31,061 nucleotides of DNA, taken from the IMG/VR virus record IMGVR_UViG_3300047462_000281, positions 1 to 31,061 of that record; one strand, written 5' to 3'. The translations under genes were made by a program, and so were the position numbers. This document shows positions 12,017-30,885 of the stretch, piece by piece. Position 1 is the stretch's first letter. Each line of letters opens with the position of its first letter. The stretch comes from a virus. The notes beneath the pieces were generated by a model, which worked only from the letters and a program-made list of their open reading frames with translations, searched no databases and was not told the DNA's origin.

Positions 12017-12443
12017 CATCGACGCAAAAGCGGCGAAGGCGGCCATGCGGGCCGGACTGCGCGCGGCCGGCGAGCTCGTGCGGGCCGAGGTCGCCTCGCG
12101 GGCTCCGGTGCGGACGATGGCCGGCGGCAACTCGCTGCCGGAGGGCGCGCTGGCCGCGGACATCACCCTGGAGGTCAAGCAGGCGTCGACTACCGGGCAG
12201 CAATATGCGGTGGTCCAGCCCGGCAGGCTTACCCGGCATGTGGCCCGCTGGGTCGAGTACGGCCATCGCATCGTGCGCGGCGGGCAGTTGAAGTTTCTCG
12301 CCAACGGCAAGACGCGCGGGCGCGGCGGATATAGCGGCGAGAATGTTCCGGCGCATCCGTTCATCCGCCCGGCCTTCGAGGCCACGCAGGCCTCCGTTGT
12401 AAAAACATTCGCGGAGAAGTTCATCGAGGCGCTCAAGAAATGA
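11961..12443 (+). CDS. HK97 gp10-like protein, displaced position
   Basis: A 160-residue protein with the HK97-gp10-like pattern: IRVEGVEQVMASLDNI, a long helix of Ala/Arg-rich heptads, VRAEVASRAPVRTM, and the C-terminal PAHPFIRPAFEAT motif that is highly typical of this family. Family members normally sit between the head-closure and tail terminator genes and take part in head-tail joining; here the gene lies between the tail chaperones and the tape measure. AGAGGG lies 9 bases before ATG, inside the chaperone frame. The stop overlaps the tape measure ATG. Confidence 0.88.
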   Translation: MADAIRVEGVEQVMASLDNIDAKAAKAAMRAGLRAAGELVRAEVASRAPVRTMAGGNSLPEGALAADITLEVKQASTTGQQYAVVQPGRLTRHVARWVEYGHRIVRGGQLKFLANGKTRGRGGYSGENVPAHPFIRPAFEATQASVVKTFAEKFIEALKK

Positions 12444-14791
12444 CCGACATCGTCGCAAACGCGGGCAACGTCAAGATCGTCATCACCGGCGACGGCTCCA
12501 ATTTCAGCCAGGTCGTCGCCGACGTCAACAAGAAGCTCGAGGCCCTCGGCGTCAAGGGCCGGGCAGCCGGGCACGGCATGGTTTCCAGCGTGCAGGCCGC
12601 CTCCGGGTCGATCCGGATCCTCGAGGGCAACGTCGAGAACAACGTGCGCGCCGTCGAGCGCTTCCTGGTCAGCTCGCTCAAGCTCGGCCCGATCCTCCAG
12701 GCGGCATTTCCCGTCGTGGGCGCCATCGCCTTCGGCGGCATCATCGCCAAGATAGGCGAAGAGGTCTACAGGTTCGCCAAGGCCGCGCAGGACGCGCCGC
12801 GCATCATCACGCAGAATTTCGCATCGTCGAATTCCGCGATGCGGCTCGCGAACGACCAACTCGCGCTGGCCAACCTGCGCCTTGAGAACGAAACGGCCAA
12901 GCTCGAAAAAAAACCGGAAAACCACCTCGCCGAGGCGTTGATCGCCTCGCAGATCGAGGCCGGCAAGCTGGTCGAGTCGCTCGAGCGCGTATCGAAGGCG
13001 CAGCAGGACGCCTTCAAGGGCCAGCATATTGGCTATCTACAGCAGCTGTTCGGCAAGGGCGGCACGCGGGACGTCGAACAAAACGTCGCCAATTTCGAGT
13101 CGCAGATCGTGGGCCGCGGCCAGGATCTGCAGATCGCGCTCGACGGCGGAGACAAATCGGGGGCGGCAACGGCCAGGGCCGAGCTTCAGCGGCTGCAGCA
13201 AAACTATATCGCATACCTGCGCGATCAGATCAAGCTGCGTACGAGCACGATTACCACGAATCCGTCGGGGCCGATCTCCTATGCCAGCGCGAATGGCGAC
13301 CAATCGGCGAACCTGGCCATCCTGCAGGGGGCGCTGAGCTCGACCCAGCTCTCAATTGCCCAACAGCGCCTGCAGGAGCAGAACGGCAGGGACCTGGCGG
13401 CAAACGACACCGCCAAGGGCAATCGCGACGCCGCTCGGGAGGCGCTCGAAGCGCAGCGCCAGCAGATGGAGGCGATGAAGCAATCGGCCGACGACCAGCT
13501 CGCCGATATCAAGCGCGATCATCAGGTGTCGATCACGGAGGAGATCGGTTACTGGCGATCGGTGCAGGCGGCGATCAAGGGGGGCGGCCAGGCGGCGATC
13601 AACTATCGCACCGAAGTCAACAAGAAGATCGGCGATCTCAGCGAGGAGCTGCGGAAGAAGTTGGAGCTCGCCCAGGGAAAGCGCGATGCTTTGAGCACCG
13701 ACGAAAGCGGCGTGCGCCAGCTGATCGAACAGCAGAAGGCGCAGTACGAGGCCGTGGAGCGCGCAATCGAGGCGGGGATCAAGCAGCGGGAAAAGATGCA
13801 GATCGGCACGGCCGAGCTGGCGCGCGGCGCGGGCAGCCTCACGGCCGCCGACTACCGCAGCGCCGTGGCCGACGCCCACACCCAGGCCTTCAACGCCCAG
13901 CGCGACGATCTGGAGCGCCAGCTCGCCCGGCTCGAAGGCTTGTCGGACCAGGCGGCGCAGCGCGAACGGCTGCAGGAGCAGCTGGACGAACTGCAGGGAA
14001 ATCGCCAGCTGCAGGTCGCGCAGGATGCGCAGGCGACCTCGGCCGCCTATGGGAATCCGTTCGTCGGCATCCGCGACGCGCTCGACGACCTGATCAATGC
14101 CTCGCACGACCTCGCCAATACCTGGCGCGAGATCGCGGGCAACGCGTTCGACACCGTCAACGGGCAGATTGTGCGGGCCATAAGCGGGCAGCGCACCGAC
14201 CTCGGCAACGCCGGCGCGAGCATCTTTCGCAGCGCCGGCGGAGCGTTGCTGAAGACGGCGGAGGGAACCCTCGGGGGCGAAGTGCTGAAACGGTTTGGCA
14301 TGGGCGGGAAGAAGACGGCTCCCACTGGCGCGGCAGGGGATGCCTTGCACGCCTGGGTTGATAATCTGAGCCAGCAGGGCGCGGGAAGTGTCGGCAATCT
14401 GCTCGATACTCTGGATGGTATGAAGGCGCTCGGGACCGAAGGGCAGGGCGCGGTTGGCGATGGATTACAGACGATTACTCCGTTGTTAACGGCAGCCATT
14501 CCCTTCCTGGCCGACGGCGGTCCGGTCGTTCGCAATATGCCGGCGATCGTCGGCGAGCGCGGGCCTGAGCTGTTCGTGCCCTCCGGATCCGGTCATATTG
14601 TCCCCAACCACAAGCTGGGCGGAACGACGCATCATCATCATTGGAATATCGACGCCAGGGGGGCGACGGATCCAGCCGCGGTAAAACGCATGGTCATGCA
14701 GGGAATCGCCGCCGCCGCGCCGCACCTGGTAAGGCTAAGCGTGGCGGCCGGCGTCGAGCGGCAAAGGAGATTGCCCAGCTCGAAACGGTGA
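12440..14791 (+). CDS. Tail tape measure protein
   Basis: A 783-residue protein. After a short N-terminal domain there is a hydrophobic stretch (residues about 80-105) that could cross a membrane during DNA injection. Residues about 110-560 are mostly long charged helices with heptad-like Gln/Glu/Arg/Ala repeats. The C-terminus has the family signature ADGGPVVRNMPAIVGERG then PELFVPSGSG, followed by a His-rich stretch. With about 1.5 angstrom of tail per residue, a tail of roughly 115-120 nm is expected. Start by ATGA overlap. This is the last gene of the main tail block before the hairpin-bounded cassette. Confidence 0.93.
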   Translation: MTDIVANAGNVKIVITGDGSNFSQVVADVNKKLEALGVKGRAAGHGMVSSVQAASGSIRILEGNVENNVRAVERFLVSSLKLGPILQAAFPVVGAIAFGGIIAKIGEEVYRFAKAAQDAPRIITQNFASSNSAMRLANDQLALANLRLENETAKLEKKPENHLAEALIASQIEAGKLVESLERVSKAQQDAFKGQHIGYLQQLFGKGGTRDVEQNVANFESQIVGRGQDLQIALDGGDKSGAATARAELQRLQQNYIAYLRDQIKLRTSTITTNPSGPISYASANGDQSANLAILQGALSSTQLSIAQQRLQEQNGRDLAANDTAKGNRDAAREALEAQRQQMEAMKQSADDQLADIKRDHQVSITEEIGYWRSVQAAIKGGGQAAINYRTEVNKKIGDLSEELRKKLELAQGKRDALSTDESGVRQLIEQQKAQYEAVERAIEAGIKQREKMQIGTAELARGAGSLTAADYRSAVADAHTQAFNAQRDDLERQLARLEGLSDQAAQRERLQEQLDELQGNRQLQVAQDAQATSAAYGNPFVGIRDALDDLINASHDLANTWREIAGNAFDTVNGQIVRAISGQRTDLGNAGASIFRSAGGALLKTAEGTLGGEVLKRFGMGGKKTAPTGAAGDALHAWVDNLSQQGAGSVGNLLDTLDGMKALGTEGQGAVGDGLQTITPLLTAAIPFLADGGPVVRNMPAIVGERGPELFVPSGSGHIVPNHKLGGTTHHHHWNIDARGATDPAAVKRMVMQGIAAAAPHLVRLSVAAGVERQRRLPSSKR

Positions 14792-14820: not shown

Positions 14821-15354
14821 ATGAGACGCCTGATTTTTTGCCTAGCCTTGATGGTTCCCGCTGGATGCGTCGCCCAAACTATCTCGCCGACGGTGAGAAA
14901 CCTTGGCGCGAAAGAGTTTGCAGTTATCACAGCAAAGAGTAACTGGTCTTACATCGCCGATCATGGGTCGCCCGCCCCGGAGTTCAATGACGAGACTAAT
15001 CGCTTAGAGGCCCGGATTCGCGAGCAGCTTCGCATCGAGGGCAGTAAAGGGACCACCGACTGGTACTTGCTGGAATTGATCCAGATGTCTAAATTCACCA
15101 TTATTCACGACCTTGTAGCCGGGCACATCGAGGCTTTGAGTAGCGCGGCCGATCTGGCAGCTCCCCCGCCGACCGTAGTGCGCGGGCCATCATGCCTTGC
15201 TCTTTTGCATAAGAGTCTGGAGACGAGCAAGTTCCAAGGGTTTACAGTCGATGATCCAAGCTATCCAAACTGTCTCGATGTTCCGGCGACGGCAACGGTC
15301 AAGGAGGTAGAGGCCGCAGTGACCGGTTATCTTGGATCGTCGATCGATGAGTAG
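14821..15354 (+). CDS. Small exported protein, moron candidate
   Basis: A 177-residue protein; the frame is open further upstream but the ATG at 14821 is preceded by AAGGAG and begins a clear signal sequence (MRRLIFCLALMVPAGCVAQ). Cleavage after the VAQ region is likely; PAGC is a poor lipobox. The mature part is mixed helix with no catalytic motif, and has two cysteines near the C-terminus (SCLALL and NCLDV) that could form a disulfide. Codon use is more A/T-rich than in the flanking phage genes. It sits between the tape measure and fibre genes and ends just before a terminator hairpin. A host-altering moron is inferred; the family is unknown. Confidence 0.78.
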   Translation: MRRLIFCLALMVPAGCVAQTISPTVRNLGAKEFAVITAKSNWSYIADHGSPAPEFNDETNRLEARIREQLRIEGSKGTTDWYLLELIQMSKFTIIHDLVAGHIEALSSAADLAAPPPTVVRGPSCLALLHKSLETSKFQGFTVDDPSYPNCLDVPATATVKEVEAAVTGYLGSSIDE

Positions 15355-15747: not shown

Positions 15748-18700
15748 ATGAAACAGTATCTCTCGCTGGCCCGTGCGGCCATGTTGCTGGCCGTCTGCGC
15801 GTTGCTGCGCGGCTGCGTCGACCCCCAGCCCGCCTTCGCCCTGGCCGCCGCCGGCTACGTCACGGTGAGCGCCACCTATACGGGCGGCGTCGACAACCTG
15901 GTCGCCAGCGGCACGATCTGCTTCGCGCCGGCGACCAGCTCGGGGCAGGCGGCGAGCTTCCGCGCGGCCTACAGCGGCCAGATCATGACCACGCCCGTCT
16001 GCGCCACGGTGACCAACGGCGTGTTTACCGTCGACCTGCCCGACACCGCCATCAGCTCCCCGGCGAACGTCTGCTACAACGTCACGGTCACCGACAACGT
16101 CACCGGCAACAGCCTGCTCGGCCCGGGCTACGGCTGCGTGCAGCCGCAGGCCCAGGCGATCAACTACTGGTGCAACCCGGCGACCAAGGTCTGCAATTTC
16201 GACCAGTACAACCCCAACCTGCAACCCAATGTCACCGTCCAGACGGGGCCGACCGGGCCCGGCTTCACCTACCGCGGCGCGTGGGCGCCCAACACCTACT
16301 ACAGCGCGATGGACGTGTTCACCTATAGCGGGAACACCTATGAGGTTCCGGAGCCCTTCACCTCCGGCTCGACCTTCTCGAGCGCCAACGTCTACCTGTG
16401 GGCGGCCGGCGGCGGCGTGCAGGTCAACCAGGCCAACACCTGGACCGGCGTGCAGACCTTCAACGACGCGCTCGGCTTCACCAACGTCTCGACCGAGGCC
16501 TTCACCACCAAGTACGTCGACGCGGGCGACTACGGGCAGGTCGTCATCCAGCCGAACGGCGTCGACAACTTCCTCGGCATCACCGCCTCCGGCACGGGCA
16601 GCGTCTCCGCGCCCGAGATCGAGATCACCTCGCCCGTGATCATCCTCAACGCGCCGCAGGTGTTGCCGGGCGTGGGTGGCACGCTCGGCACCGGCGTCAG
16701 CCCTTTCGCGGCGGCCTATGTCACCGCGCTCGGGGCCCCGATCTACCCGGTCGGGAGCGCCTATATCACCGCGCTCACCGTCGGCAGCTGCAGCGGCTGC
16801 GGAGGCGGAGGCGGGGGCGGCTCGGGCACCGGCACCGTCGCCTCGCCGATCGCCGCCGTCTGGGTGTCGAACTCGGGCAACCTGGGCGTGCTCGCCAAAT
16901 ACACCGACTCGAGCGACTACAGCGCGCTGGACATCACCGCCAGCGGCATCAGCGGCGTCGTCAGCTTCACCGGCACGCATACCGGATCGGTGACCCAGCA
17001 GCCCCTGTTCTACTTCGACGCCAGCAACTACACCTGGGCCGTGGGCGGCACGGCGAAGCTCACCTTCACCGGGCTGGCGCTCGACCCGGAGGTGGCCGGC
17101 GGCGTCAACCTGGGCGCGAACGGCGCGGAGTACGGGTACGGCTTCTTCCAGAACCTCGGCACCTACCCGGACCCGATCACGACCGAGTTCGTCAACACGC
17201 TCTATATCGAGGGCGGCCTGAGCGCCCCGGCGGCCAACCCGACCTTTAACAGCGTGACCTCGAGCAACGCCGTCAACGCGGTCAACGGCAACTTCACCAA
17301 CATCACCGTGACCGGCACGGCGACCATTCCCCTGACGTCGCCCGGCGGCGACGGCTCGCATCTCTACACGGGCCTCGCCAGCGGCACGCAGACCACGCCG
17401 AACGTCGACGCCTTCGGCGACTCGTTCATGGCCGGCACCGGCGCGTCCGGCGCGGGCACGAAGTTCATCGCCGTCGCGACGGCCGCGCAGGGCTGGACCT
17501 ACACCGACCATGCGGTCGGCGGCGCCGGCATCTTCGACCAAACCCCGCAGTCCTATGCGACGGCCGTCAACCCCGGCAGCTACAGCGTCTTCTACATGGG
17601 CGACAACGGCATCGGCTCGATCACCTCGGGCTGGTACACGAGCTACCAGGAGGCGTATCTCGCCGTCCTCGCCTACCGCGCCATCCCCGACACCGGCTAC
17701 TACACCGCGACCGGCCAGACGGGCGTGCCGAGCAAGGTCCACGCCGACAACACGGCCTATGTCACCCAGGGCTCGGGCAACGCCTGGACGTCGAACAGCG
17801 ATAGCAATATCGGCTTCGGCCTCAAGACGACCGAGGCCAACGACACGCTGAGCTACACAGCGATCGGCAGCTCGCTGCTGCTCGGCCTGCGCCAGACGAC
17901 CACCTCGACCTACGTCGTCTGTGCGACCGTCAACGGGGCGAGCTACGGTTGCTACAGCTCGGAGATGCAGTACGCCGACGGGGCCGACAACGACGGCTAC
18001 GCGGCGACCGAGGCCGGGGCGGCCTTCGTCATCCCGGTCGGCAACACGGCCCGCGAGATGAACGTGGTGCTCACCTGCCAGACGCCGGGCGCGACCGGCT
18101 GCCTGGTCGACTGGCTGGCCGCCAACGGCAACGCCGCCTTGCGCCAGGGCCCGTATGTGTGGGTGATGGGGCCGACGGGGAGCGCCAGCACCTTCCAGAA
18201 TTCCACCGGCATCAACCCCCCGCTCAACGATATCGTGCGCCACAACGCCGAGCTGCTCGAGGGCATGCACCTCAACGTCGACTATGTCGACGTGCTGCCT
18301 TATCTCGATTTCAACCTGATGCCGCAGCTGATCAACACGAGCGACGGGCACCCGAACGACGCCGGCCACGCGCTCATGGCCCAGGCGCTCACCGACTCGT
18401 GGTCCTCGCTGGTCGGGCCGCGCGACCGCAGCGCGAGCTGGCTCGCCGCCTCGATGGCCAACCAGGCGTCTTTCGGCGTAGGCGCGCCCACCTCGACCTG
18501 CGGCCCGGCGCAGTCGGGGTCGCTCTACAAGCGGACCGACGTCTTCGGGGAATATCTGTGCAACGGCGTCGCCTGGACGGCCCTTCCCGGCCCGACCGGC
18601 GGCTCGAGCTCCACCAACGGTATCGCCAAGTTCACCGCCGGCGTGCTGGGCACCGCGACCCCCGGCACCGACTATCTCTCGCCCTCGAGCACGATCGCCG

Positions 18701-21700
18701 CGGCCAATCTCTCCGGCATTCTGCCTGCCGCGAACGCCCCGGCCCTCACCGGGGACGTGACGACCACGGCCGGGAGCGTGGCCACCACCGTCAAAGGCGT
18801 CAACGGGACGCTCTTGTCCGGCTTGCCCACCGGCCTGCTCAAGAACACCACCGGCACGGGCGCGCCGTCGATCGCGACCGACTCCGATCTTTCCTCCACG
18901 GCCTACGCGGTGGACACCGGCGCCGCCAACGCCTACGTGGTCGCGCTCTCGCCCGCGCCGACGCTCTCCGCCGGACTCTCGGTCAAGGTGGCGATCGCCA
19001 ACAGCTCCACCGGCGCGTCGACGCTCAACGTCAACGGCCTGGGCGCGGTTTCGGTCGAAAAGAAGACCGTCTCGGGGCTTCAAGGCATTGCCGCCAACGA
19101 CCTGATCGCCGGGCAGGTCTACGGCTTCGACTACAACGCCGCCTGCACTTGCTTTCAGACCTCGGCGACGGCCGCGCAGGCGACCGGCACCGTGACGCAC
19201 ACGACGGGCAATCTGACCGCGACCGAGCTGGCGGTCGGCAACGGGAGCGCCGATCTCACCGTCGACCCGAACACCACCGTGGTGCCGATCACGAGTCCGG
19301 TGACCGGCAACCCCATCTCGGAGATCTTCGCGCAGGCGGCCTTCACCGCCAGCGTCGTGGCGCTCGAGATCAATCCGGAGCCGTACCTCGCGCAGGAGGG
19401 CGGCAACTATGCCCTGGCCTCGCTCGACGCCCATCTCGCGGCCGGATACTCGACGCAATCGGGCAGCGCGCCGAACTACACCTACAGCGGGGTCTGCACC
19501 AAGACGTCCACGAGCTGCTACTGGCCCTACGACTACAGCTTCCGCTGCGGGCAGGGGCCGAAGAACATCGACCGTCCCATCATCTTCCACGGCACGGAGC
19601 ATCTGAACGGCACCTGCCACTTCAACCTGGTGCCCTCGGCGGCCGGATTGGCGGCTGGCTCCAGCTGGGGGACCTCTCCCGTGACGGCGATGGGAGTCTT
19701 TACCCAGGGATCGACCACTGTGACCGTTCCCGCGGGATTGACGGCCGCCGTGTCGAACACCCCCGCCGGAATGCCCTCGACCGGTCTATGGGCCGGGCCG
19801 TTCTACCTGGGCGGCTCGACCACCTGCGGCATCGGCAACATCTATGCCGGAACTTACGGCTCGGGGACCACCTACGGCCTTGACAACGTGGTCACCTACT
19901 CCGGCGTGAAATACATCTCGCTGCAGGCAGGGAACGTCGGCAACGAGCCGGACATCTCCCCGGCCTATTGGTCCACAAACAACGCGCTGCCCGCCGGCGT
20001 CAACCTCCGCGTCCGTTACTCGAACCTGCTGGATGTCCCGGTGGTCTGGCCCCCGGCGATCTTCACCTCGACGCCGACTACGGGCTGCAACCCGACTTTC
20101 GCCAGCGGCTATACGCCGACCATTACCGGCGCGACCACCCAGCCGACCATCACGCTCACCGTGACGCCCTTCGCGGCGAACCAGCGCTTCGGCGCGGGCA
20201 ACGCGTCGCCTGCCGGGAACTACGTCAAGAACGTCATCCCCGCCACGGCGACGCTCGGCCAGGTGACCGGAACCGTCTCCGGAGGGTCGGTTGCGTCGTA
20301 CACGATCACCACCGCTGGAGCGGGCCTGCCCAACGGCGTCTACGGCATCGTCGCCGACGGCAGCCAGTCTTCGCTGCTCTCGGAGCCGATCGCCGAGATT
20401 ACGGTGAGCGGCGGGGCCATCACCTCGGTGGCGACGGCCAACGCGGGAAGCGGTCTGACCTCGAACGTCACTTTCACCTTGACGCCCGGAACCTTCGTCT
20501 CGTCGATGCCGGTCGGGGTGCGCTTCCACGGCAAGGCGCAGGGCTCCGGCACGGGCTCGAACGCCCATAACTGGGTGTGCGGCGTCGACCGCCTGGACTA
20601 CCTCGCGCCCTACCAGGTGTTGAGCGAGGGCCACCTCACCTCGGGCAGCTACATCGTCGCCACGGCCGGGCAGTATATGGGCGCCTACAACGCCGGAACC
20701 ACCTATGCGCAATATCAGGTGGTCACCAACGGCGGCGCGACGTTCATCTCGCTGCAGAACGGCAACGTGGGCAACACGCCCGCGGCCGCCCAGAACTACT
20801 GGTCGACCTTCTGCGCCAGCGGCACGGGCCAGGGGCTGCTGCTTGCCGCTCCGGGCGCGCCCACCGGGACGACCTTCTCGGGAACCATCGCATCGACCGG
20901 CTCGAACACCATCACCGCAGCGGCCAGCGCCTTCCTGCTCTCGCCCTCGTATGCGGCGATGGCCGTCGGCGAGGACCTGGTGCAGGCGACGCTGCTGACC
21001 GGAACCAACGCGATCTCCGCGATCAGCTGCTCGAGCGGCACCTGGCCGGGAACGTGCTCCGGCACGGTGACCATCACCTACACCGGCACCGCGCCGCTGA
21101 CGACCGGCACGGGCACCTTCATCATCGCGAACCCGGTCGGCGCGACCACCGGCACCGACTCCGTGCCGCAGCTCTTCACGCTGACGATCGGCCAGCAGTT
21201 CTCGGCCGCGATCGGCGCGATCACCGCGCAGGCCGCCGTGCAGGCGCCCTTGAGCAACAACGACCGCGAGAACACCGAGGGCCTGCAGTTCGGGCTCACA
21301 TGGGACCACCTGATCATCGAAGATCCGCTATTCCGGTGGGCGACGGGCGTCGGCGGCGTACAGCTCGGCGGTCACGATTCCACTTCGGGCCGGGGACTCG
21401 ACTTACGCAACATTCTGGGCATCGGCCAGTCGGAGGGCGGTACGCCGATCACCGACCCTTTCGCGACCGGGATGGACCCGGAGCAGGCGCTTTCGGCGCG
21501 CGACTCCAATTTCTACGACTGGACGGTGTCCTACGCCGGGGACGCGCTCACCGGCCAGCCGTGCATGGAATTCTCGCCGGGATGGGAGGACTATTCCTCA
21601 ACCCAGGACAACAACAACATGGACCACTACAAAATGGGCCATGTCAATTTCTGCCAGTGGACGGCATGGGAGTTCGGGACGCACAACATCGTGCAGTGGA

Positions 21701-24483
21701 ACCTGGGTTCGTCGCTATCGGGCAACCGGACGCACGACTTCGACGGCATCCAGTCGGAGCAAGGCAACAACGGCCATCGCTTCATGCAGCCGGGCACCTG
21801 GAACATCCAAACCTCCGGAGCGCCGACGGTGCGCTTCGACTCTTCGAGCGACATACATTTCACCAACGCCTTCATCTCGACCCCCGGTTCGGGGGCGGAG
21901 ACGATCCAGCAGAATAACTCCGGCACGCTTACCTACTCGGGCGGCATCCTTGTGGCGGGCGGCAAGACCACCACCTTCGTGGCGACGGCCAGCGGCAACA
22001 CGCTGACGTATGTGAGCGGCGGGGGCACCTTCAGCAACTCGGCGACCTGGGCCGGGTTCGACCCGACTCCGCGCTTCATGGACAACATGGATGTAACCTG
22101 CACCGAGTCCACCACGGGCGCGACGGTCTACTACAACTACTCCGCGCCCTTCGCGGCGGTCGGCGGCAACGGCTCGACCCTGACCCTTACCGGGCCTTAC
22201 ACCGGGCCGAACACCGGAACCATCACCTGCACCGTGGGCCACGGCGGCTATTACTATTCCAACAACTCGAACCACACCGCGACGGCGATCTTCGACAGGA
22301 CGACCAGTTACACCGACAACGACGGGGCCGGTCGCGCGGCGATGGGCCAGGTCAACCTCATCGAGCAGTTCGGGATGCTCAACGGCGTCGGCGCCGTCAT
22401 GAACTACAACGGCACCGACACCACCTACTACGGTACGGCCGGCGGAGGCACCACGCTCTACTCGAACGCGGCATCCTCGACCGGATCGTCGATCCTCAAC
22501 ATCGCCGGAAAGACGACGAACGGCGACTGGTTCGGCATGAGCTTCGGTCCGCAGGCCTCGACCAACGTCAACGGCCCGACGAACGTCCAGTCGTTCCTCT
22601 GGGGCGAAGTGCCGGGCACGAACTACAACGCCTGCGGCGGCTTCTCGCAAAGCGCGGGCATCCAGTGCAATTTCATGATGGACCCGACCGGGGACATCGT
22701 GGAGCAACAACAGGTCAACACCGGCTCGGCCTATACCTTCACCGGTTCGACAACCTCGGGGCAGAACACCATCACCGGCATCACGTCGCTAAGCTCCTCC
22801 GTCCAGGTGGGGTGGCCGGTCAACAGCGTGGTGTCCGCCGGCAACGGCTGGCCGATCCCGACCGACACCGCGACGATCACCGCGATCGCCTGCACCACCG
22901 GCACCTGGCCGCTGACCTGCGGGGGAACCACCGGCCAGCCCTTCACCGTGACGTTCAGCGGAACGGCCTCGGCGATCACCGGGTCTTCGGAGTCGTTCTT
23001 TATTCCGGAGGAAACCGTCAAATCGAACGCGGTCTCGATCCAGGGAGCGCTGGCGGTGGGCGGCGCGACAACGCACAACGCCGGCCTGACGATGGTGAGC
23101 GCCACGCCGCCGACGGCGACCGCGCCCTCGACGGCCCCGACCATCGCCAGCGAGAGCCAGTATCTCGACTTCAACTCCGCGACGCAGGCCGACAAGGACC
23201 TCTTCGCCAACAGCTGCGGGCTTGGGGACGACCCCTTCTGCCCGCTGACCTTCGGGCACTCGAGCACGGGCACGACGGGCGTCTCGACCGGCGGCATCTC
23301 GCTGGGCAACTATCCGCTCCAGGGGGCCTCGCAGATCTCCGGCGGCAACGGCGGCAAGTTCACCGGCAACATCCTCGGCCCGGCGACGCTGGGGGCGTAC
23401 AGTTTCAGCGGCGGGGACGTCTCGATCACCACGAGCGCCCAGGCCTGGATCGTCGGCGATACCTTCTACGGCACCTGCGCGGCCGCCGGGGTCGCCAGCT
23501 CGACGGCCTATACGCTGCTCGCCGGGACGAACTCGACGACGGCCGTCTTCGCGCTGTCGGGCTCCGGCACGGGCACTTGCGCGGGAGGCAGCGTCGGCGG
23601 CGACGGCTCGATCTCGGGCATCTCGATCACCAGCGGCGCGGTGGCGCAGGGCGAGTATGTCACCGGCACGGAGATCGCCACCGGCTCCGCGAAGCTCTCG
23701 ACCTACACCGGGGGCACGACGGCGGTGATGAGCGGCCCGGCGACGGCCACGGTGACCGGCGAGAGCTTCACCGTTCCGGCGGCCACGCTGGGCGCGACCG
23801 ACAACTTCACCACTCCGGTGCTGGTCGACAACCAGTTGCAGATATCCACGTCGTCGAGCGGCGGCACCTATGGCAAGGGGCTGCTGGTCACCGACACCAA
23901 CACGGCAGGGCAGTCCGCCTTCGTCTTTCCTGACCTGGCCACCAATTCACCCGGCTGCATCCTGATCGGCTACGACACGGCGACCGACGGCGACTATGGG
24001 CAGCTGTGCCTGCTATGGTCCGGCACGAGCGGTTCGGCGGCCAACCTCCTCACCCTCGGCACCAAGAACTCGACCGACCTGACGATGAGCAATTCGGGCC
24101 TGGTCGCGGTGCCGCACGCGTTGCAGGCGGGCACGATCGCCGGAACTTCGACCACGTTGACCTTCAGCGCCGGAGGGTCCTCGCAAGTGGGCACCGGCGC
24201 GACCACGCCGGCCTGCGCGACGAACGTCGTCTGCGATGAGTTCTCGGGCACGGCGACCTTCACCACGGGCACCGGAACCCTGACGGCGGGCGTGCTGCTC
24301 ACCGTCAACTTCGGCACGACGCGAACCAATTATCCGAGCTGCTCGACGCGCATCTTCGGGCCTTCCGGCGTGGTCACCACGGAGACCGCGCCGACCACCA
24401 ACACCAACCAGCTGAAGTTCAACGGAACCCTGGCGGCGTCGACGGCTTACACGTTGATCTGGTCGGGCTGCGGAGGCAACTAG
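15748..24483 (+). CDS. Giant tail fibre with SGNH esterase and CBM5/12-like modules
   Basis: A 2911-residue beta-rich protein, probably the receptor-binding fibre. In order: an export-like N-terminus (hydrophobic residues 8-20, then RGC at 21-23); a beta domain; a TGPTGPG mini-collagen; CBM5/12-like modules at about 175-225, 1367-1412 and 1643-1690 (each with spaced Tyr, D-x-V-x-Y-x-G and a closing Trp); a Gly linker near 351-361; an SGNH/GDSL esterase at about 550-885 with GDS (S559), GGAG, GDN (N620) and DGHP (D866, H868); typical fibre repeats (about 925-1150, including ALTGDVTTTAGS); a probable beta-helix around 1850-2050; a repeated beta domain (about 1710-1795, 2332-2421, weaker 2618-2681); and a Cys-containing C-terminal domain. 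The esterase probably deacylates surface polysaccharide. It lies between the tape measure and tail-tip genes. Confidence 0.87.
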   Translation: MKQYLSLARAAMLLAVCALLRGCVDPQPAFALAAAGYVTVSATYTGGVDNLVASGTICFAPATSSGQAASFRAAYSGQIMTTPVCATVTNGVFTVDLPDTAISSPANVCYNVTVTDNVTGNSLLGPGYGCVQPQAQAINYWCNPATKVCNFDQYNPNLQPNVTVQTGPTGPGFTYRGAWAPNTYYSAMDVFTYSGNTYEVPEPFTSGSTFSSANVYLWAAGGGVQVNQANTWTGVQTFNDALGFTNVSTEAFTTKYVDAGDYGQVVIQPNGVDNFLGITASGTGSVSAPEIEITSPVIILNAPQVLPGVGGTLGTGVSPFAAAYVTALGAPIYPVGSAYITALTVGSCSGCGGGGGGGSGTGTVASPIAAVWVSNSGNLGVLAKYTDSSDYSALDITASGISGVVSFTGTHTGSVTQQPLFYFDASNYTWAVGGTAKLTFTGLALDPEVAGGVNLGANGAEYGYGFFQNLGTYPDPITTEFVNTLYIEGGLSAPAANPTFNSVTSSNAVNAVNGNFTNITVTGTATIPLTSPGGDGSHLYTGLASGTQTTPNVDAFGDSFMAGTGASGAGTKFIAVATAAQGWTYTDHAVGGAGIFDQTPQSYATAVNPGSYSVFYMGDNGIGSITSGWYTSYQEAYLAVLAYRAIPDTGYYTATGQTGVPSKVHADNTAYVTQGSGNAWTSNSDSNIGFGLKTTEANDTLSYTAIGSSLLLGLRQTTTSTYVVCATVNGASYGCYSSEMQYADGADNDGYAATEAGAAFVIPVGNTAREMNVVLTCQTPGATGCLVDWLAANGNAALRQGPYVWVMGPTGSASTFQNSTGINPPLNDIVRHNAELLEGMHLNVDYVDVLPYLDFNLMPQLINTSDGHPNDAGHALMAQALTDSWSSLVGPRDRSASWLAASMANQASFGVGAPTSTCGPAQSGSLYKRTDVFGEYLCNGVAWTALPGPTGGSSSTNGIAKFTAGVLGTATPGTDYLSPSSTIAAANLSGILPAANAPALTGDVTTTAGSVATTVKGVNGTLLSGLPTGLLKNTTGTGAPSIATDSDLSSTAYAVDTGAANAYVVALSPAPTLSAGLSVKVAIANSSTGASTLNVNGLGAVSVEKKTVSGLQGIAANDLIAGQVYGFDYNAACTCFQTSATAAQATGTVTHTTGNLTATELAVGNGSADLTVDPNTTVVPITSPVTGNPISEIFAQAAFTASVVALEINPEPYLAQEGGNYALASLDAHLAAGYSTQSGSAPNYTYSGVCTKTSTSCYWPYDYSFRCGQGPKNIDRPIIFHGTEHLNGTCHFNLVPSAAGLAAGSSWGTSPVTAMGVFTQGSTTVTVPAGLTAAVSNTPAGMPSTGLWAGPFYLGGSTTCGIGNIYAGTYGSGTTYGLDNVVTYSGVKYISLQAGNVGNEPDISPAYWSTNNALPAGVNLRVRYSNLLDVPVVWPPAIFTSTPTTGCNPTFASGYTPTITGATTQPTITLTVTPFAANQRFGAGNASPAGNYVKNVIPATATLGQVTGTVSGGSVASYTITTAGAGLPNGVYGIVADGSQSSLLSEPIAEITVSGGAITSVATANAGSGLTSNVTFTLTPGTFVSSMPVGVRFHGKAQGSGTGSNAHNWVCGVDRLDYLAPYQVLSEGHLTSGSYIVATAGQYMGAYNAGTTYAQYQVVTNGGATFISLQNGNVGNTPAAAQNYWSTFCASGTGQGLLLAAPGAPTGTTFSGTIASTGSNTITAAASAFLLSPSYAAMAVGEDLVQATLLTGTNAISAISCSSGTWPGTCSGTVTITYTGTAPLTTGTGTFIIANPVGATTGTDSVPQLFTLTIGQQFSAAIGAITAQAAVQAPLSNNDRENTEGLQFGLTWDHLIIEDPLFRWATGVGGVQLGGHDSTSGRGLDLRNILGIGQSEGGTPITDPFATGMDPEQALSARDSNFYDWTVSYAGDALTGQPCMEFSPGWEDYSSTQDNNNMDHYKMGHVNFCQWTAWEFGTHNIVQWNLGSSLSGNRTHDFDGIQSEQGNNGHRFMQPGTWNIQTSGAPTVRFDSSSDIHFTNAFISTPGSGAETIQQNNSGTLTYSGGILVAGGKTTTFVATASGNTLTYVSGGGTFSNSATWAGFDPTPRFMDNMDVTCTESTTGATVYYNYSAPFAAVGGNGSTLTLTGPYTGPNTGTITCTVGHGGYYYSNNSNHTATAIFDRTTSYTDNDGAGRAAMGQVNLIEQFGMLNGVGAVMNYNGTDTTYYGTAGGGTTLYSNAASSTGSSILNIAGKTTNGDWFGMSFGPQASTNVNGPTNVQSFLWGEVPGTNYNACGGFSQSAGIQCNFMMDPTGDIVEQQQVNTGSAYTFTGSTTSGQNTITGITSLSSSVQVGWPVNSVVSAGNGWPIPTDTATITAIACTTGTWPLTCGGTTGQPFTVTFSGTASAITGSSESFFIPEETVKSNAVSIQGALAVGGATTHNAGLTMVSATPPTATAPSTAPTIASESQYLDFNSATQADKDLFANSCGLGDDPFCPLTFGHSSTGTTGVSTGGISLGNYPLQGASQISGGNGGKFTGNILGPATLGAYSFSGGDVSITTSAQAWIVGDTFYGTCAAAGVASSTAYTLLAGTNSTTAVFALSGSGTGTCAGGSVGGDGSISGISITSGAVAQGEYVTGTEIATGSAKLSTYTGGTTAVMSGPATATVTGESFTVPAATLGATDNFTTPVLVDNQLQISTSSSGGTYGKGLLVTDTNTAGQSAFVFPDLATNSPGCILIGYDTATDGDYGQLCLLWSGTSGSAANLLTLGTKNSTDLTMSNSGLVAVPHALQAGTIAGTSTTLTFSAGGSSQVGTGATTPACATNVVCDEFSGTATFTTGTGTLTAGVLLTVNFGTTRTNYPSCSTRIFGPSGVVTTETAPTTNTNQLKFNGTLAASTAYTLIWSGCGGN

Positions 24484-24816
24484 ATGGCGGACGGGGAGTT
24501 CGTGGACCGGCGCGACAGCTCCAACATTCTCGACAAGCTGGACGAAATCCTCGACAACCAGGGCGGCGCCCGCGAGGCTATCGGTCTGCTGCGCGAGGAG
24601 ATCGCGACGATCAAGGTGCAGATAGGGGAGCTCTTCGGCGACGGCGCGAAGCCCGGACGCATGAGGGACCTGGAGAACCGGGTCGACGTGCTCGAAAAGC
24701 ACCACGACATGCGCGAGAGCGCCAAGGTGACGCGGGCCGACATTATGAAGATCGTCAGCGCGCTGCTCGGGCTGCTGGGCATCAAGTGGCTCTCCCACCT
24801 ATGGACTGGAAAATAG
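24484..24816 (+). CDS. XhlA-like coiled-coil membrane protein
   Basis: A 110-residue protein starting directly at the fibre stop. Residues about 12-80 form a charged coiled coil (ILDKLDEILDNQ, then LENRVDVLEKHHD), and the C-terminus is a single membrane segment (about residues 87-107, including IVSALLGLLGIKWL) with a short basic end. This architecture matches XhlA-type proteins, which assist holins in some phages. No separate holin or endolysin is adjacent. It could instead be a fibre chaperone or anchor, given its position right after the fibre gene. Confidence 0.75.
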   Translation: MADGEFVDRRDSSNILDKLDEILDNQGGAREAIGLLREEIATIKVQIGELFGDGAKPGRMRDLENRVDVLEKHHDMRESAKVTRADIMKIVSALLGLLGIKWLSHLWTGK

Positions 24817-24817
24817 C

Positions 24818-25471
24818 GTGCAGACCATCGCCGTCGGCGCGAACACCTACACGCTGGTGGCCATGCCCGCCAAGCCCGGCTTCGCCGAGGTCGCCTTCGG
24901 CATGACCGACTCGGTGTCGGCCGTCACGTCGCCCTTCACCATGCAGACGCAGACGCAGGCGTGGCCGGGCGCCGACATGTGGACGGCGCAATTCACCCTG
25001 CCGCCCCTGACCTTCCAGGCCTCGCGCGCGTGGCTCGCCTTTCTCGCCGGGCTGCGCGGCCGCCTCAACGTCTTCCAGGCCGGAGATCCCTACGCCGCGA
25101 GGCCGCAGGGCACCGGCGCGGGCGCGCCCGTGGTCGACGGCTCCGTGGGAACCAACAACGCGGCCATGGCCACCACCCTCTACACGCGGGGCTGGCTGCC
25201 ATCGCGTTTCGGCGTGCTGCTGCCGGGCGACAACCTGCAGATCGGCTACCGGCTGCACATGGTCGCCGGCGACGCAAGGGTGAATTCGGACTCGACGGGC
25301 GCGGCGAACTTCCCGATCTTCCCGTCGCTGCGCGAGCAGCCGGCGGACGGCGCGGCGATCGTGCTCAGCAACCCCAAAGGACTATTCCGCCTGCCGCAGA
25401 ACAAGCGCGGCTGGCACAGTTCGCCCTCGATGCTCGTGCAGACCGGCTTCGACGGAGAGGAAGTGCGATGA
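24818..25471 (+). CDS. Distal tail / minor tail protein
   Basis: A 217-residue beta-rich protein with a GTG start two bases after the previous stop. Features are VTSPFTMQTQTQAWPG, then W-containing strands (MWTAQFTLPPL), WLAFLAGLRGRLNVFQAGDP, and LLPGDNLQIGYRL. This pattern is shared by unnamed minor tail proteins in other siphoviruses and fits a distal-tail ring that links the tube to the hub. It occupies the first slot of a four-gene module with the same order as the gene transfer agent tail tip. The stop overlaps the next ATG (ATGA). The role is inferred from order and general pattern. Confidence 0.72.
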   Translation: MQTIAVGANTYTLVAMPAKPGFAEVAFGMTDSVSAVTSPFTMQTQTQAWPGADMWTAQFTLPPLTFQASRAWLAFLAGLRGRLNVFQAGDPYAARPQGTGAGAPVVDGSVGTNNAAMATTLYTRGWLPSRFGVLLPGDNLQIGYRLHMVAGDARVNSDSTGAANFPIFPSLREQPADGAAIVLSNPKGLFRLPQNKRGWHSSPSMLVQTGFDGEEVR

Positions 25472-26488: not shown

Positions 26489-28609
26489 ATGAGTAAAGCC
26501 ATCGAGGGGCTGGCCATGGTCGGCGCGGCCGTGGGCCTCGGCGCGATCGCCTTCCTCGATCCCGCGCTGCTGCCCGCGCTGCTGCCGGTCATGACCGCCC
26601 TCGTGGCCGGCGGCGCGGCCATGGAGGCGGGCGCGATCGCGCAGGCGCTCACGCAGAACCGGGGCATGGGCATCACCGTCCGCCAGCCGGCCGCCTTCCG
26701 CCAGATCGTCTACGGCGAGCAGCGCGTCGGAGGCGTCTCGATCTACCAGTCGACCACCGGCGGCAAGCACGACCAGTACAACTACATCATCGTGCTGGCC
26801 ACGCACGAGATCGACTCGATCCTCAACCTCTACCTCGACGGCCGCCAGGTCTTCTGGGACACGACCAACTACGGCAACAGCACGCGCAACGGCGTGAACT
26901 TCGGCGGATCGGCCGACGGCAACGACCACATCGGCCCCGGCGGCAACCACTACAATTTCGGCACGCTGGTCTATTGCGAGGCGCGCTGGGGCGACCAGGC
27001 CGAGGGCGACGTGATCGGCGCGATGACCGCGAACGATCCCAACTGGGCCGCGACCGAGGCCGGCTCGCCGTGGGTCGGCGGCTGCGCGTATGTCTATCTC
27101 AAGGTCGAGTTCGACACCGCCATGTTCCCGCAGCAGCCCGAGATCCGCTTCACCGTCCGCGGCAAGAACAACGTCTTCGACCCGCGCACCGGCGGAACGG
27201 GATACACGACGAACGCCGCGCTGATCCAGGCCGACGTGCTCACCGACGCGACCTGGGGGCTGGGCGACAATAGCGTCAACCAGGCCCAGCTGATCGCGGC
27301 CGCGAACGTCTGCGACGAACAGGTCGCGCTCGCCGCCGGCGCGACCGCCAACAATCCGCTCGGAACCGAGGCGCGCTACGCCTGCCACTACCACTACGAC
27401 ACGTCGGTGGGGCCCGGCGACGTGCTGCAGCAGATGATGCCGGCGTGCGCGGGAAGGCTCTCGCGCATCGGCGGCGAATGGTTCATCTGGCCCGCCTACT
27501 GGCAGGGGCCGAGCTTCGAGTTCGACGAAAACGCGCTGGTCGACCGCATCCAGTGGACGCCGAACCGCAGCTACCGCGATCTCTGGAACTATGTCACCGG
27601 CACTTACATCGCGCCGAACTACCCCTACAACGCGGCCGGCAATCTCTACGACACCAACGGCTGGTACGAGGGCACCACGCAGGACAACTTCCCCTTCGCC
27701 TTCCAGCCGACCAACTACCCGCAATACGCGCAGGACGTGCTCCACGGCTACAGCTCGAACGCGCTGCTGGCGGCCGACGGCGGCGTCTACCTGCCCCACG
27801 AGGTGGTGCAGAACTGCGTGCTCTCGGTGGCCCAGGCGCAGCGCGTCGCCAAGATCATGCTGCTGCGCAACCGCCAGCAGGGCTCCGGCGTCTTCCCGAT
27901 GTCGCTCGCGGCCCTTCAGATGCAGCCGACCGACGTGATGCAGTTCACCTTCGCCGCCGCCGGGTGGACGGGGAAATACCTGGAGATCGACTCGATGCGC
28001 TTCAAGGCGGAGGCCCAGGACGCGATGGCCGACGATGGCGAGCACCCGCCCCGCATCTATGTCGAATGCTCGGTGATCGAAACGGCCGAGGCCGTCTACG
28101 AGTGGAGCACGAGCGAGGAACTCACCGTCTACGACGTGCCGGCGGCGCCGCCGCAATCGCCCTACATCGTCGACGCGCCGACCGGCTTTTCGGTGGTATC
28201 GAGCGACGCGACGGCGCTGATCGCCGAGGACGGCGTGGTCACGCCGAGGGCGCTGCTGAGCTGGACCGCGCCGACGGACATCCTGAGCCGCAGCATCCAG
28301 ATCCAGTTCCAGGCGGCGACCGACTCGGGCTGGACCGACGCGGGGACGGTCGACGCCGCCACGACCCAGGCCTATGTCGCCGGCGTCGTCAGCGGCGCGG
28401 AATACAACTTCCAGATCCGCAGCATCCGGAACAACGGGGCGCAGTCGGCGTGGGCGGGCTTCGACGCTGTGACGATCGGAGCGCCCAGCTCGGGGGTCGC
28501 GGCGACCTCCGCCCCGGCGACGGGCATCCTCATTCCGGACACCGTCAACGGCCACACCTACAAGATTCAGGTCACCGACGGGGCGGTGGCGCTCACGATG
28601 GTGAGTTAG
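26489..28609 (+). CDS. Large tail-tip / host-specificity protein (gpJ/GTA gp15-like)
   Basis: A 706-residue protein with GTGAAG ahead of the start. Residues 1-50 include a hydrophobic, probably membrane-active segment (AALLPVMTALVAGG-like). The next part, RQIVYGEQRVGGVSIYQ, is the family hallmark seen at the start of the tip-attachment domain, followed by YNYIIVLATHEIDSILNLYLDG. Central beta-rich domains include DRIQWTPNRSYRDLWNYV, and an FN3-like domain lies at about 558-655 (SWTAPTD, then EYNFQIRSIRNNG). The protein should close the tail tip and contact the envelope. It is shorter than most gpJ proteins, perhaps because receptor binding is done by the giant fibre. Ends in a G9 tract. Confidence 0.88.
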   Translation: MSKAIEGLAMVGAAVGLGAIAFLDPALLPALLPVMTALVAGGAAMEAGAIAQALTQNRGMGITVRQPAAFRQIVYGEQRVGGVSIYQSTTGGKHDQYNYIIVLATHEIDSILNLYLDGRQVFWDTTNYGNSTRNGVNFGGSADGNDHIGPGGNHYNFGTLVYCEARWGDQAEGDVIGAMTANDPNWAATEAGSPWVGGCAYVYLKVEFDTAMFPQQPEIRFTVRGKNNVFDPRTGGTGYTTNAALIQADVLTDATWGLGDNSVNQAQLIAAANVCDEQVALAAGATANNPLGTEARYACHYHYDTSVGPGDVLQQMMPACAGRLSRIGGEWFIWPAYWQGPSFEFDENALVDRIQWTPNRSYRDLWNYVTGTYIAPNYPYNAAGNLYDTNGWYEGTTQDNFPFAFQPTNYPQYAQDVLHGYSSNALLAADGGVYLPHEVVQNCVLSVAQAQRVAKIMLLRNRQQGSGVFPMSLAALQMQPTDVMQFTFAAAGWTGKYLEIDSMRFKAEAQDAMADDGEHPPRIYVECSVIETAEAVYEWSTSEELTVYDVPAAPPQSPYIVDAPTGFSVVSSDATALIAEDGVVTPRALLSWTAPTDILSRSIQIQFQAATDSGWTDAGTVDAATTQAYVAGVVSGAEYNFQIRSIRNNGAQSAWAGFDAVTIGAPSSGVAATSAPATGILIPDTVNGHTYKIQVTDGAVALTMVS

Positions 28610-29222: not shown

Positions 29223-30314
29223 CTAGCCCTTCCTGTCGACAAGCCGCAGGCCGTTGTGGCGCTCCGCCGACGGCCTCGGTCCCTTTCTGTCGAGCACGCT
29301 CAGCGCCGAGGCCTTCGCCTCGATGCGCGCGTGCGAATAGGTGCTGATCATGTTGCGGCTCACCCATCCGGCGATGGCCACCACGGTCTGCTCGGGCTGG
29401 CCGCTCTCGAGCAGCTCCGTCACGGCCAGGTGGCGGAAGGCGTGGGGGCGCAGATGCGCGACGCCGGTCGCCTTGCGCAGCTTGGCGGTCTGCTTGCGCA
29501 GCCAGGACTTCGACGCGGGCCTGGTCGGATCCCAGAGGGCGCGGTTCACGCGCAGTGGGAAAAGATAATGTTCGGGCCGGTGGGCTCCGAGGCGGTGCGC
29601 CCGCTCCATGGCCCGCGAGACGGCCTCGTAGGCGCCCTGGTTGAGCGGAATGACCCGCGGCCGGACGAGGTTCTTCACGGCGTCCGCGGGAATGCTGATG
29701 CGCGGCGGGTGGTGGTAAAGCTCGACGTTGCGAAGCCGCAGCCCGCGCAGCTCGCAGCCGCTGGCGGTCGTATTGCGGGTGATGGTGAAGACGATCTCGG
29801 CCAGCTCGACATTGGGATCGTGGGCGGCGGTGTCGAAGATGCGCTCCTGCTCGGCCATGGTGAAGGTCTTCGGGGGCTGCCACGCGGGCTCGGGCAGCGG
29901 AGCGTACCAGTCGGCGAGCGGCTGCCAGAGTCCGGCTTTCTTGAGGATCTGCGAGAGCACGTTGAGCTCGTGGTTGATCGCCGAGACGCCCGCGGCGCGG
30001 GCGCGGTCGTGCTGGTAGGCCTTGAGCGAGCCGGGATGGAAGTCGACCAGCGGCATCGGCCCGAAGAAGCGGACCAGGCTGCGCAGGTTGCCCTCGCAGC
30101 ACTCGATCGTCTTCGGCCGCAGACCTTTGCTTACCTTGCCGGCGAGCCAAACCTGGCCAGCCTCCACGAGGTTCATTGTTCGCAGCTTCCCGCCGGCGGT
30201 GGCTCCTTCGAGGGACCACTCGCACGCCGGGCAGTTTTTATGCCCGATCGTGTGCCGTCTTACAACCAAGGATTTGAGTGCAGACAGTGCTTCGCCGTCT
30301 TTGTTGTGTGTCAT
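29223..30314 (-). CDS. int: Tyrosine recombinase (prophage integrase)
   Basis: A 363-residue integrase from the ATG at 30314 (AAGG lies about 10 bases upstream; a longer open frame starts at 30437 without a convincing N-terminus). Residues 21-31 carry H, H, C and C in a possible zinc knuckle (GHKNCPAC). A SAM-like core-binding domain spans about 47-135. In the catalytic domain K214, H291, R294, W317 (His/Trp position) and the nucleophile Y326 (ISTYSH) are recognisable. The first catalytic Arg is expected near TTASGCEL, but S185 stands at the aligned position (codon AGC; CGC would give Arg). It lies 0.5 kb from the tRNA-derived attR, as expected for a prophage end. Confidence 0.92.
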   Translation of the reverse strand: MTHNKDGEALSALKSLVVRRHTIGHKNCPACEWSLEGATAGGKLRTMNLVEAGQVWLAGKVSKGLRPKTIECCEGNLRSLVRFFGPMPLVDFHPGSLKAYQHDRARAAGVSAINHELNVLSQILKKAGLWQPLADWYAPLPEPAWQPPKTFTMAEQERIFDTAAHDPNVELAEIVFTITRNTTASGCELRGLRLRNVELYHHPPRISIPADAVKNLVRPRVIPLNQGAYEAVSRAMERAHRLGAHRPEHYLFPLRVNRALWDPTRPASKSWLRKQTAKLRKATGVAHLRPHAFRHLAVTELLESGQPEQTVVAIAGWVSRNMISTYSHARIEAKASALSVLDRKGPRPSAERHNGLRLVDRKG

Positions 30315-30529
30315 CCATAAAACCTTCGTAATCGGAATGGGGGCACGGGTGGAGCGTGGACCGAGGCGGAGAGACGTTCGCCGGGCATTCCTAGTCGCGA
30401 TCTTGCGTCGCGCGCCCTGGCGGAAATGGATTACCACTTCAACAGCAGTATGCCCCGGAAGTTGGCGGTAGGTGGAAGTATCTCGTGCATTCCTTGGTGA
30501 AGGTCGGGAGTTACCACAAGATACAGAGG

Positions 30530-30731: not shown

Positions 30732-30840
30732 CGATTTCACGTTGTCAACGGTTTGAACGCTCCCAGCGAGCAATTTTGACCGGCGCGACGGAGCAAGGAA
30801 AGACCAATGGAACTCCTGCAGGAATGTTTGGGACTCCTCC

Positions 30841-30885
30841 CTTACAAGCAGGATGTCGGGGGTTCGAGTCCCTCACTGCCCACCA
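30841..30885 (+). tRNA. 3' half of tRNA-Val(UAC): prophage attR
   Basis: CTTACAA (30841-30847) is the anticodon loop with anticodon TAC, GCAGG (30848-30852) the 3' anticodon stem, 30853-30857 the variable loop, GGGGG-TTCGAGT-CCCTC (30858-30874) the T arm, ACTGCCC (30875-30881) the 3' acceptor strand, A the discriminator, and CCA is encoded (30883-30885). The 5' acceptor strand and D arm are absent: no GGGCAGT occurs upstream. The upstream bases CCTCC only nearly complete the anticodon stem (one mismatch). This is what a tRNA split by integration looks like; an intact copy should exist at attL, left of the window. Confidence 0.88.

Follow-up and report, generated by a model that had tools for sequence, protein, structure and literature searches.

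A predicted Sec signal peptide on a fibre-like protein with a putative SGNH esterase head from the tail module of a siphophage

The question raised by this locus is what a very large fibre-like protein with an esterase-like domain does for a phage when its gene lies among tail genes and its N-terminus resembles an export signal. The window analysed is the whole of virus record IMGVR_UViG_3300047462_000281 (31,061 bases), and it carries a siphophage gene set with terminase, portal, S49 protease, HK97-type capsid, major tail protein, distal tail protein (Dit) and a J-like protein. An HNH endonuclease gene (749-1168) lies upstream of the terminase genes. The single open reading frame of 2911 residues that an earlier note had described as a fibre was borne out at 15748-24483 (+). 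It is preceded by a probable tape measure protein (TMP; 12440..14791, +; 783 aa, helical, without cysteine), which was assigned from its position and helical sequence and whose homologues occupy the same place in relatives, and by a 177-aa ORF (14821..15354, +) that has a signal-peptide-like start of its own, MRRLIFCLALMVPAGCVAQ, and no match in PHROG. Directly after the fibre stop codon starts gp24484 (24484..24816, +), a 110-aa coiled-coil protein with a C-terminal hydrophobic segment and no PHROG match; it has an XhlA/holin-like look, a likeness that is an impression only. Dit follows at 24818..25471 (+; phrog_1302, E=9e-32) and the J-like central fibre at 26489..28609 (+; phrog_5616, E=2e-58; phrog_31, E=2e-30). 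The 2911-aa protein and J are the only large fibre candidates of this phage.

The SGNH-like esterase domain was placed at residues 545-893 (17380..18426, +), and its motif blocks were read in the translation. Block I is FGDSF with S559 (17422..17424, +) as the putative nucleophile, block II is GGAG at residues 591-594 (17518..17529, +; AVGGAG at 589-594), block III is GDNG with N620 (17605..17607, +) as the predicted oxyanion Asn, and block V, DGHPNDAGH, holds D866-G-H868 (18343..18351, +). The block I Ser, block II Gly, block III Asn and block V His that define the SGNH/GDSL superfamily are thus all present, at the residues and in the order given in the earlier note. The segments run VDAFGDS, AVGGAG, SVFYMGDNG and a helix-like YQEAYLAVLAYRA, then an insert, and after it YVWVMGP, a helix-like NPPLNDIVRHNAELLEG, VDYVDVLPYL and DGHPNDAGHALMAQAL, which, as read from the sequence, is the order of an SGNH core. 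PF13472 (Lipase_GDSL_2) matched in two collinear pieces, at 17410-17532 (profile 1-46) and 18205-18375 (profile 125-178). Searched alone, the domain again gave two collinear stretches, with E=0.0013 and 19.8 bits, below the cut-off of 32.9, and the NCBIfam GDSL lipase model matched its C-terminal part at E=0.004, also below cut-off. An HMM built from other SGNH proteins gave 18.2 bits as compared with at most 10.5 in 2000 shuffles, a comparison that is partly circular because some of the seeds had been fetched with the block V motif. A single-sequence AF2 model of residues 545-893 was of low confidence (pLDDT 34.7), and searches of viral contigs, GenBank phages and species genomes found no close homologue of the domain. 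The esterase domain is probably real.

Block III had been described in the earlier note as GDN and not GxND, with a possible change in oxyanion geometry. This was a misreading: the sequence is G-D-N-G, which keeps the Asn and differs only in having Gly for the Asp behind it. The oxyanion residue of the canonical GxND is the Asn, and because N620 holds that place, no special geometry is indicated and the claim of an altered one is unsupported. Another head in the fibre family (L057) has GVNG at block III. A departure that had gone unremarked lies in block V, where the Asp stands two residues before the His (DxH) and not the canonical three (DxxH), with a Ser at -3 from H868. The DxxH of the canonical GDSL subgroup is therefore absent, which lowers the fit to that subgroup and leaves the fit to the superfamily unharmed, because DxH is a documented variant within it. 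A review of SGNH enzymes reports a DXH block for AlgX/AlgJ and, for CE2, Ser-His dyads, and CE20 enzymes are described as having DxH, a water-mediated triad and an SGNH domain into which an ancillary domain is inserted. An identical DGHPNDAGH string occurs in seven cellular loci. The insert of the window domain (residues ~650-797, ~145 aa; 17695..18138, +) separates the two PF13472 pieces, appears beta-rich from its sequence, contains the cysteine pairs C725/C735 and C777/C785, and gave no family match. A CE2-like jelly roll was tried for it and rejected, with no signal and a score below those of shuffles.

Three CBM5/12-like modules had been proposed in the same protein, and here the evidence differs between them. 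Module 1 (residues 174-222; 16267..16413, +) matched PF02839 at E=7.7e-4 and 19.9 bits, below the cut-off of 26.2, which is passed by two relatives (L072, 29.4; L083, 30.3); the same stretch also matches actinophage minor tail proteins and a tail fibre of phage Tunturi_5. Module 2 (residues ~1382-1428; 19891..20031, +) and module 3 (residues ~1636-1690; 20653..20817, +) were recognised by eye from a W/Y pattern, the former overlapping a match to phrog_14646 (E=2.9e-11 over residues 1366-1425) and the latter matching fibre-like ORFs in L049 and L074. The acidobacterial target named in the earlier note is unsupported by any test of this analysis; an acidobacterial host was considered and not adopted, since a weak match to a Tunturiibacter phage is confined to the CBM-type module.

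Relatives were collected with the J protein, which brought in 26, many of them with a large tail-module protein that shares the first ~200 residues of the fibre. A profile of this shared N-terminal region, followed by a second scan, yielded 47 distinct ORFs with the domain, which in the window protein spans residues 36-160 (15853..16227, +) and was delimited from an alignment of 37 sequences, AF2 and structural matches. Six cysteines lie in the domain of the window protein, four of which are conserved in the family. Where the flanks allow the place of the gene to be seen, it is mostly TMP-[protein]-Dit-J, and otherwise just before TMP or around J. The domain has no family in Pfam and PHROGs, where only the collagen or CBM part behind it matches; none was found in GenBank phages, plasmids or PDB sequences, and no fibre homologues were found in 23 records with related terminases. 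AF2 with the 37 sequences gave a pLDDT of ~90 over model residues 20-130. The best structural match was the tail fibre of cyanophage A-1(L) (residues 1-104; Z 9.4, rmsd 2.3, 94 aligned), followed by the Bxb1 tail tip (Z 7.7), the Ur-lambda tail tip (7.5), a Bacteroides adhesin (7.0) and the XM1 neck (6.5); four of these five come from phage tails or necks, and only the A-1(L) Z exceeds the range that common beta-sandwiches reach. The modelled domain looks like a virion-docking or fibre-attachment fold.

Behind this domain the family is variable. Among the tails of 44 other members, collagen-like repeats were found in 13, CBM5/12 in 5, pectate-lyase-like stretches in 4, GDSL_2 in 4 (PF13472 at E<=0.01, to which the GxNG-type head of L057 is to be added) and beta-propellers in 3, so the heads are interchangeable and SGNH is one kind among several. 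Two N-domain fibres occur in one phage in L084, L085, L090, L099, L057, L072, L074 and L105, as overlapping neighbours in several cases and some of them just before the TMP gene. The domain is split by an inserted module in L055, L057 (a 1103-aa ORF), L103 and L106, and the insert of L057 matches CBM4_9.

The earlier note lacked the Sec-type signal peptide at the start of the fibre. Residues 1-31 (MKQYLSLARAAMLLAVCALLRGCVDPQPAFA|L; 15748..15840, +) have a K/R n-region, a hydrophobic core and A-F-A before the predicted cut, as expected of a substrate of signal peptidase I. A signal peptide is unexpected here, the normal site of tail fibre assembly being the cell interior. That the signal stems from a wrongly chosen start was considered for the window protein and rejected: the ATG has a Shine-Dalgarno-like GGAG upstream, and there is no Met between the core and the domain. 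Signal peptides were called by a crude rule (n-region, hydrophobic core and A-x-A-like site), by which 43 of the 47 family members, the window protein included, have one, their segments showing a K/R n-region, core and A-x-A/AQ end; 42 of these 43 start with ATG and 37 have a Shine-Dalgarno-like site. Applied to control homologues, the rule flagged none of 21 TMPs, 1 of 36 Dits and none of 22 homologues of g11226. It also flagged J homologues (15/17) and major tail proteins (3/16), and a hydrophobic N-terminus alone is therefore not decisive. The N-terminal stretch of J homologues is unusually hydrophobic (26489-26640 in the window). Among fibre-like ORFs of relatives that lack the N-domain, some have signal-like starts and others (L054, L063 and L067) plain fibre starts. 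The isolated phage Tunturi_5 has fibre proteins with the same CBM-type module, and no signal segment was found in them.

The cysteines are a stronger argument for export than hydrophobicity. The fibre has 46, and TMP, Dit and gp24484 have none. Each of the pairs C30/C57 and C114/C121 is present as both or neither in 37/37 aligned rows. In every one of the four members without a signal (L053, L060, L087 and L093), both C81 and the C114/C121 pair are missing, an association with Fisher p-values of 8e-5 for C81 and 2e-4 for C114/C121 over the 37 aligned rows, which are related, so that the p-values overstate independence. Proteins that form disulfides outside the cytoplasm would be expected to show such a pattern.

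The surroundings of the gene bear on when the protein would be made. An integrase is encoded in the window at 29226-30437 on the minus strand, 12 of the 20 related virus records that carry an N-domain fibre have an integrase, and the phages that carry the fibre family are largely temperate. A tRNA 3' half (30834-30884; anticodon-arm and T-arm sequence, ending in ACTGCCCACCA) adjoins the integrase, which suggests that a tRNA 3' end is the integration site of this phage; ARAGORN found no whole tRNA there. Because the fibre stop codon directly precedes gp24484 and then Dit, late co-expression of the fibre with the tail genes is suggested. Terminator-like hairpins lie upstream of the fibre gene, and no promoter-like site was found there in a search limited to the sigma-70 consensus.

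The reading favoured here, and held to be probable, is that the 2911-aa protein is a Sec-exported, presumably disulfide-bonded, fibre-like enzyme from the tail module of a temperate siphophage. It would be expressed late, the signal peptide (aa 1-31) would take it across the inner membrane, and disulfides would form after export; behind the signal would follow the fibre-attachment-type domain (aa 36-160) and then the CBM5/12-like modules, with which it would bind polysaccharide. In the SGNH head, S559 would serve as nucleophile, G591-594 and N620 would form the oxyanion hole, and H868 would act as base with help from D866 through the DxH arrangement. The head would take acyl groups, most likely acetyl groups, off a surface or extracellular polysaccharide, and would do so outside the cell, either as a free protein, at the host surface, or attached to virions once lysis has occurred. 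Because 43 of the 47 family members carry a signal peptide, the fibre may work as an enzyme after export, instead of or in addition to a role in a virion assembled in the cytoplasm. A more particular version, that these are side fibres with a docking domain which are exported by Sec, acquire their disulfides in the periplasm and attach to tails only once lysis lets virions and fibres meet, is put forward tentatively and judged rather unlikely; we know of no description of such docking after export as an assembly route in tailed phages.

Two other accounts of the protein were weighed against export of a tail-module enzyme. It might be an ordinary virion fibre that bears an SGNH deacetylase head and is put together in the cytoplasm, its hydrophobic N-terminus being structural and not an export signal. 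Fibres with SGNH domains are common and have been tested (G7C gp63.1, Possum gp66 and Klebsiella prophage fibres), the N-domain resembles virion-attachment domains, the protein is the sole large fibre candidate besides J, four family members do without the signal, and J homologues also have hydrophobic N-termini. These points are opposed by the complete signal architecture in 43/47 members, by cysteines that covary with the signal and with each other, and by the Tunturi_5 fibre proteins, which share the CBM-type module and have no such N-terminal segment; we regard this account as unlikely. The signal and cysteine pattern would also suit a lysogenic-conversion protein that is exported by the lysogen, stays on its surface or in the matrix, alters the polysaccharide of that host (to ward off superinfection, for instance) and is never part of the virion, an account that could also draw on the temperate context, the precedent of lambda Lom and the terminator-like hairpins upstream. 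It has to contend with the run from the fibre stop directly into gp24484 and Dit, which suggests late co-expression with tail genes, with the lack of a promoter-like site upstream by the sigma-70 consensus, with an N-domain that has the look of a virion-docking fold, and with the fact that no surface-anchoring element was recognised, and it was given the same low standing as the ordinary fibre.

A further alternative concerns the head and not the carrier. The SGNH-like motifs could be a degenerate or inactive remnant, or belong to a lectin-like domain without catalysis, and the sub-threshold profile score, the DxH spacing, the lost Asp of block III and the low-confidence model are all compatible with this. 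Yet the four name-giving residues are retained, AlgX/AlgJ and CE20 function with a DxH block, seven cellular proteins have the identical block V string, and another head of the family also has GxNG, and an inactive head was accordingly considered improbable. On the reading preferred here, that of an exported fibre-like enzyme, the earlier proposal of a virion that binds and deacylates a polysaccharide holds in part: a polysaccharide esterase in a fibre-like protein is the best reading, given the tested phage examples, whereas binding by the virion itself is unproven in view of the signal peptide in 43/47 members.

An SGNH head on a phage fibre is ordinary in itself and already well known; the point of interest is the exported fibre family. 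No family of fibres that are encoded in tail modules and combine Sec signal peptides with matching cysteines was found in PHROGs, Pfam or a literature search. If these proteins are exported, either temperate phages use late tail genes to equip the host surface or the medium with enzymes that bind polysaccharide, or export can precede the fitting of fibres to tails.

The chemistry proposed is well precedented, since phage-fibre SGNH heads are described that are esterases by experiment, with deacetylation of O-polysaccharide also shown. The tailspike gp63.1 of E. coli phage G7C, the Klebsiella prophage receptor-binding proteins and Possum gp66 likewise have an SGNH domain within a long fibre or spike, with O-deacetylation of a surface polysaccharide as the likely task. 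In the accessible text they are treated as virion proteins and no signal peptide is mentioned, whereas the window protein has one; unlike them, it is also rich in cysteine, has a large insert in the SGNH domain and is encoded between TMP and Dit. The CE20 enzymes Fl8CE20_II and PpCE20_II resemble the window domain in having a DxH block V and an SGNH domain interrupted by an ancillary domain, but their block I is GQSNM, and because that of the window is GDSF the domain is not CE20. AlgX and AlgJ share the DxH block V as well, but in a circularly permuted H-S-G-N order and with Tyr for Asn, where the window has S-G-N-H with Asn. The N-terminal domains of the A-1(L) tail fibre (8kec) and of the Bxb1 and Ur-lambda tail tips are the best structural neighbours of residues 36-160; in the solved structures they begin at chain residue 1 or 2, whereas in the window protein the domain follows a signal peptide and has conserved cysteines. 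A parallel in gene arrangement is Lom of phage lambda, described as a signal-peptide protein that lysogens express and whose gene lies between those for tail spike and tail fibre. Like the window protein it is a signal-peptide protein among the tail genes of a temperate phage, but Lom is an outer-membrane beta-barrel and the window protein a fibre with an enzyme head.
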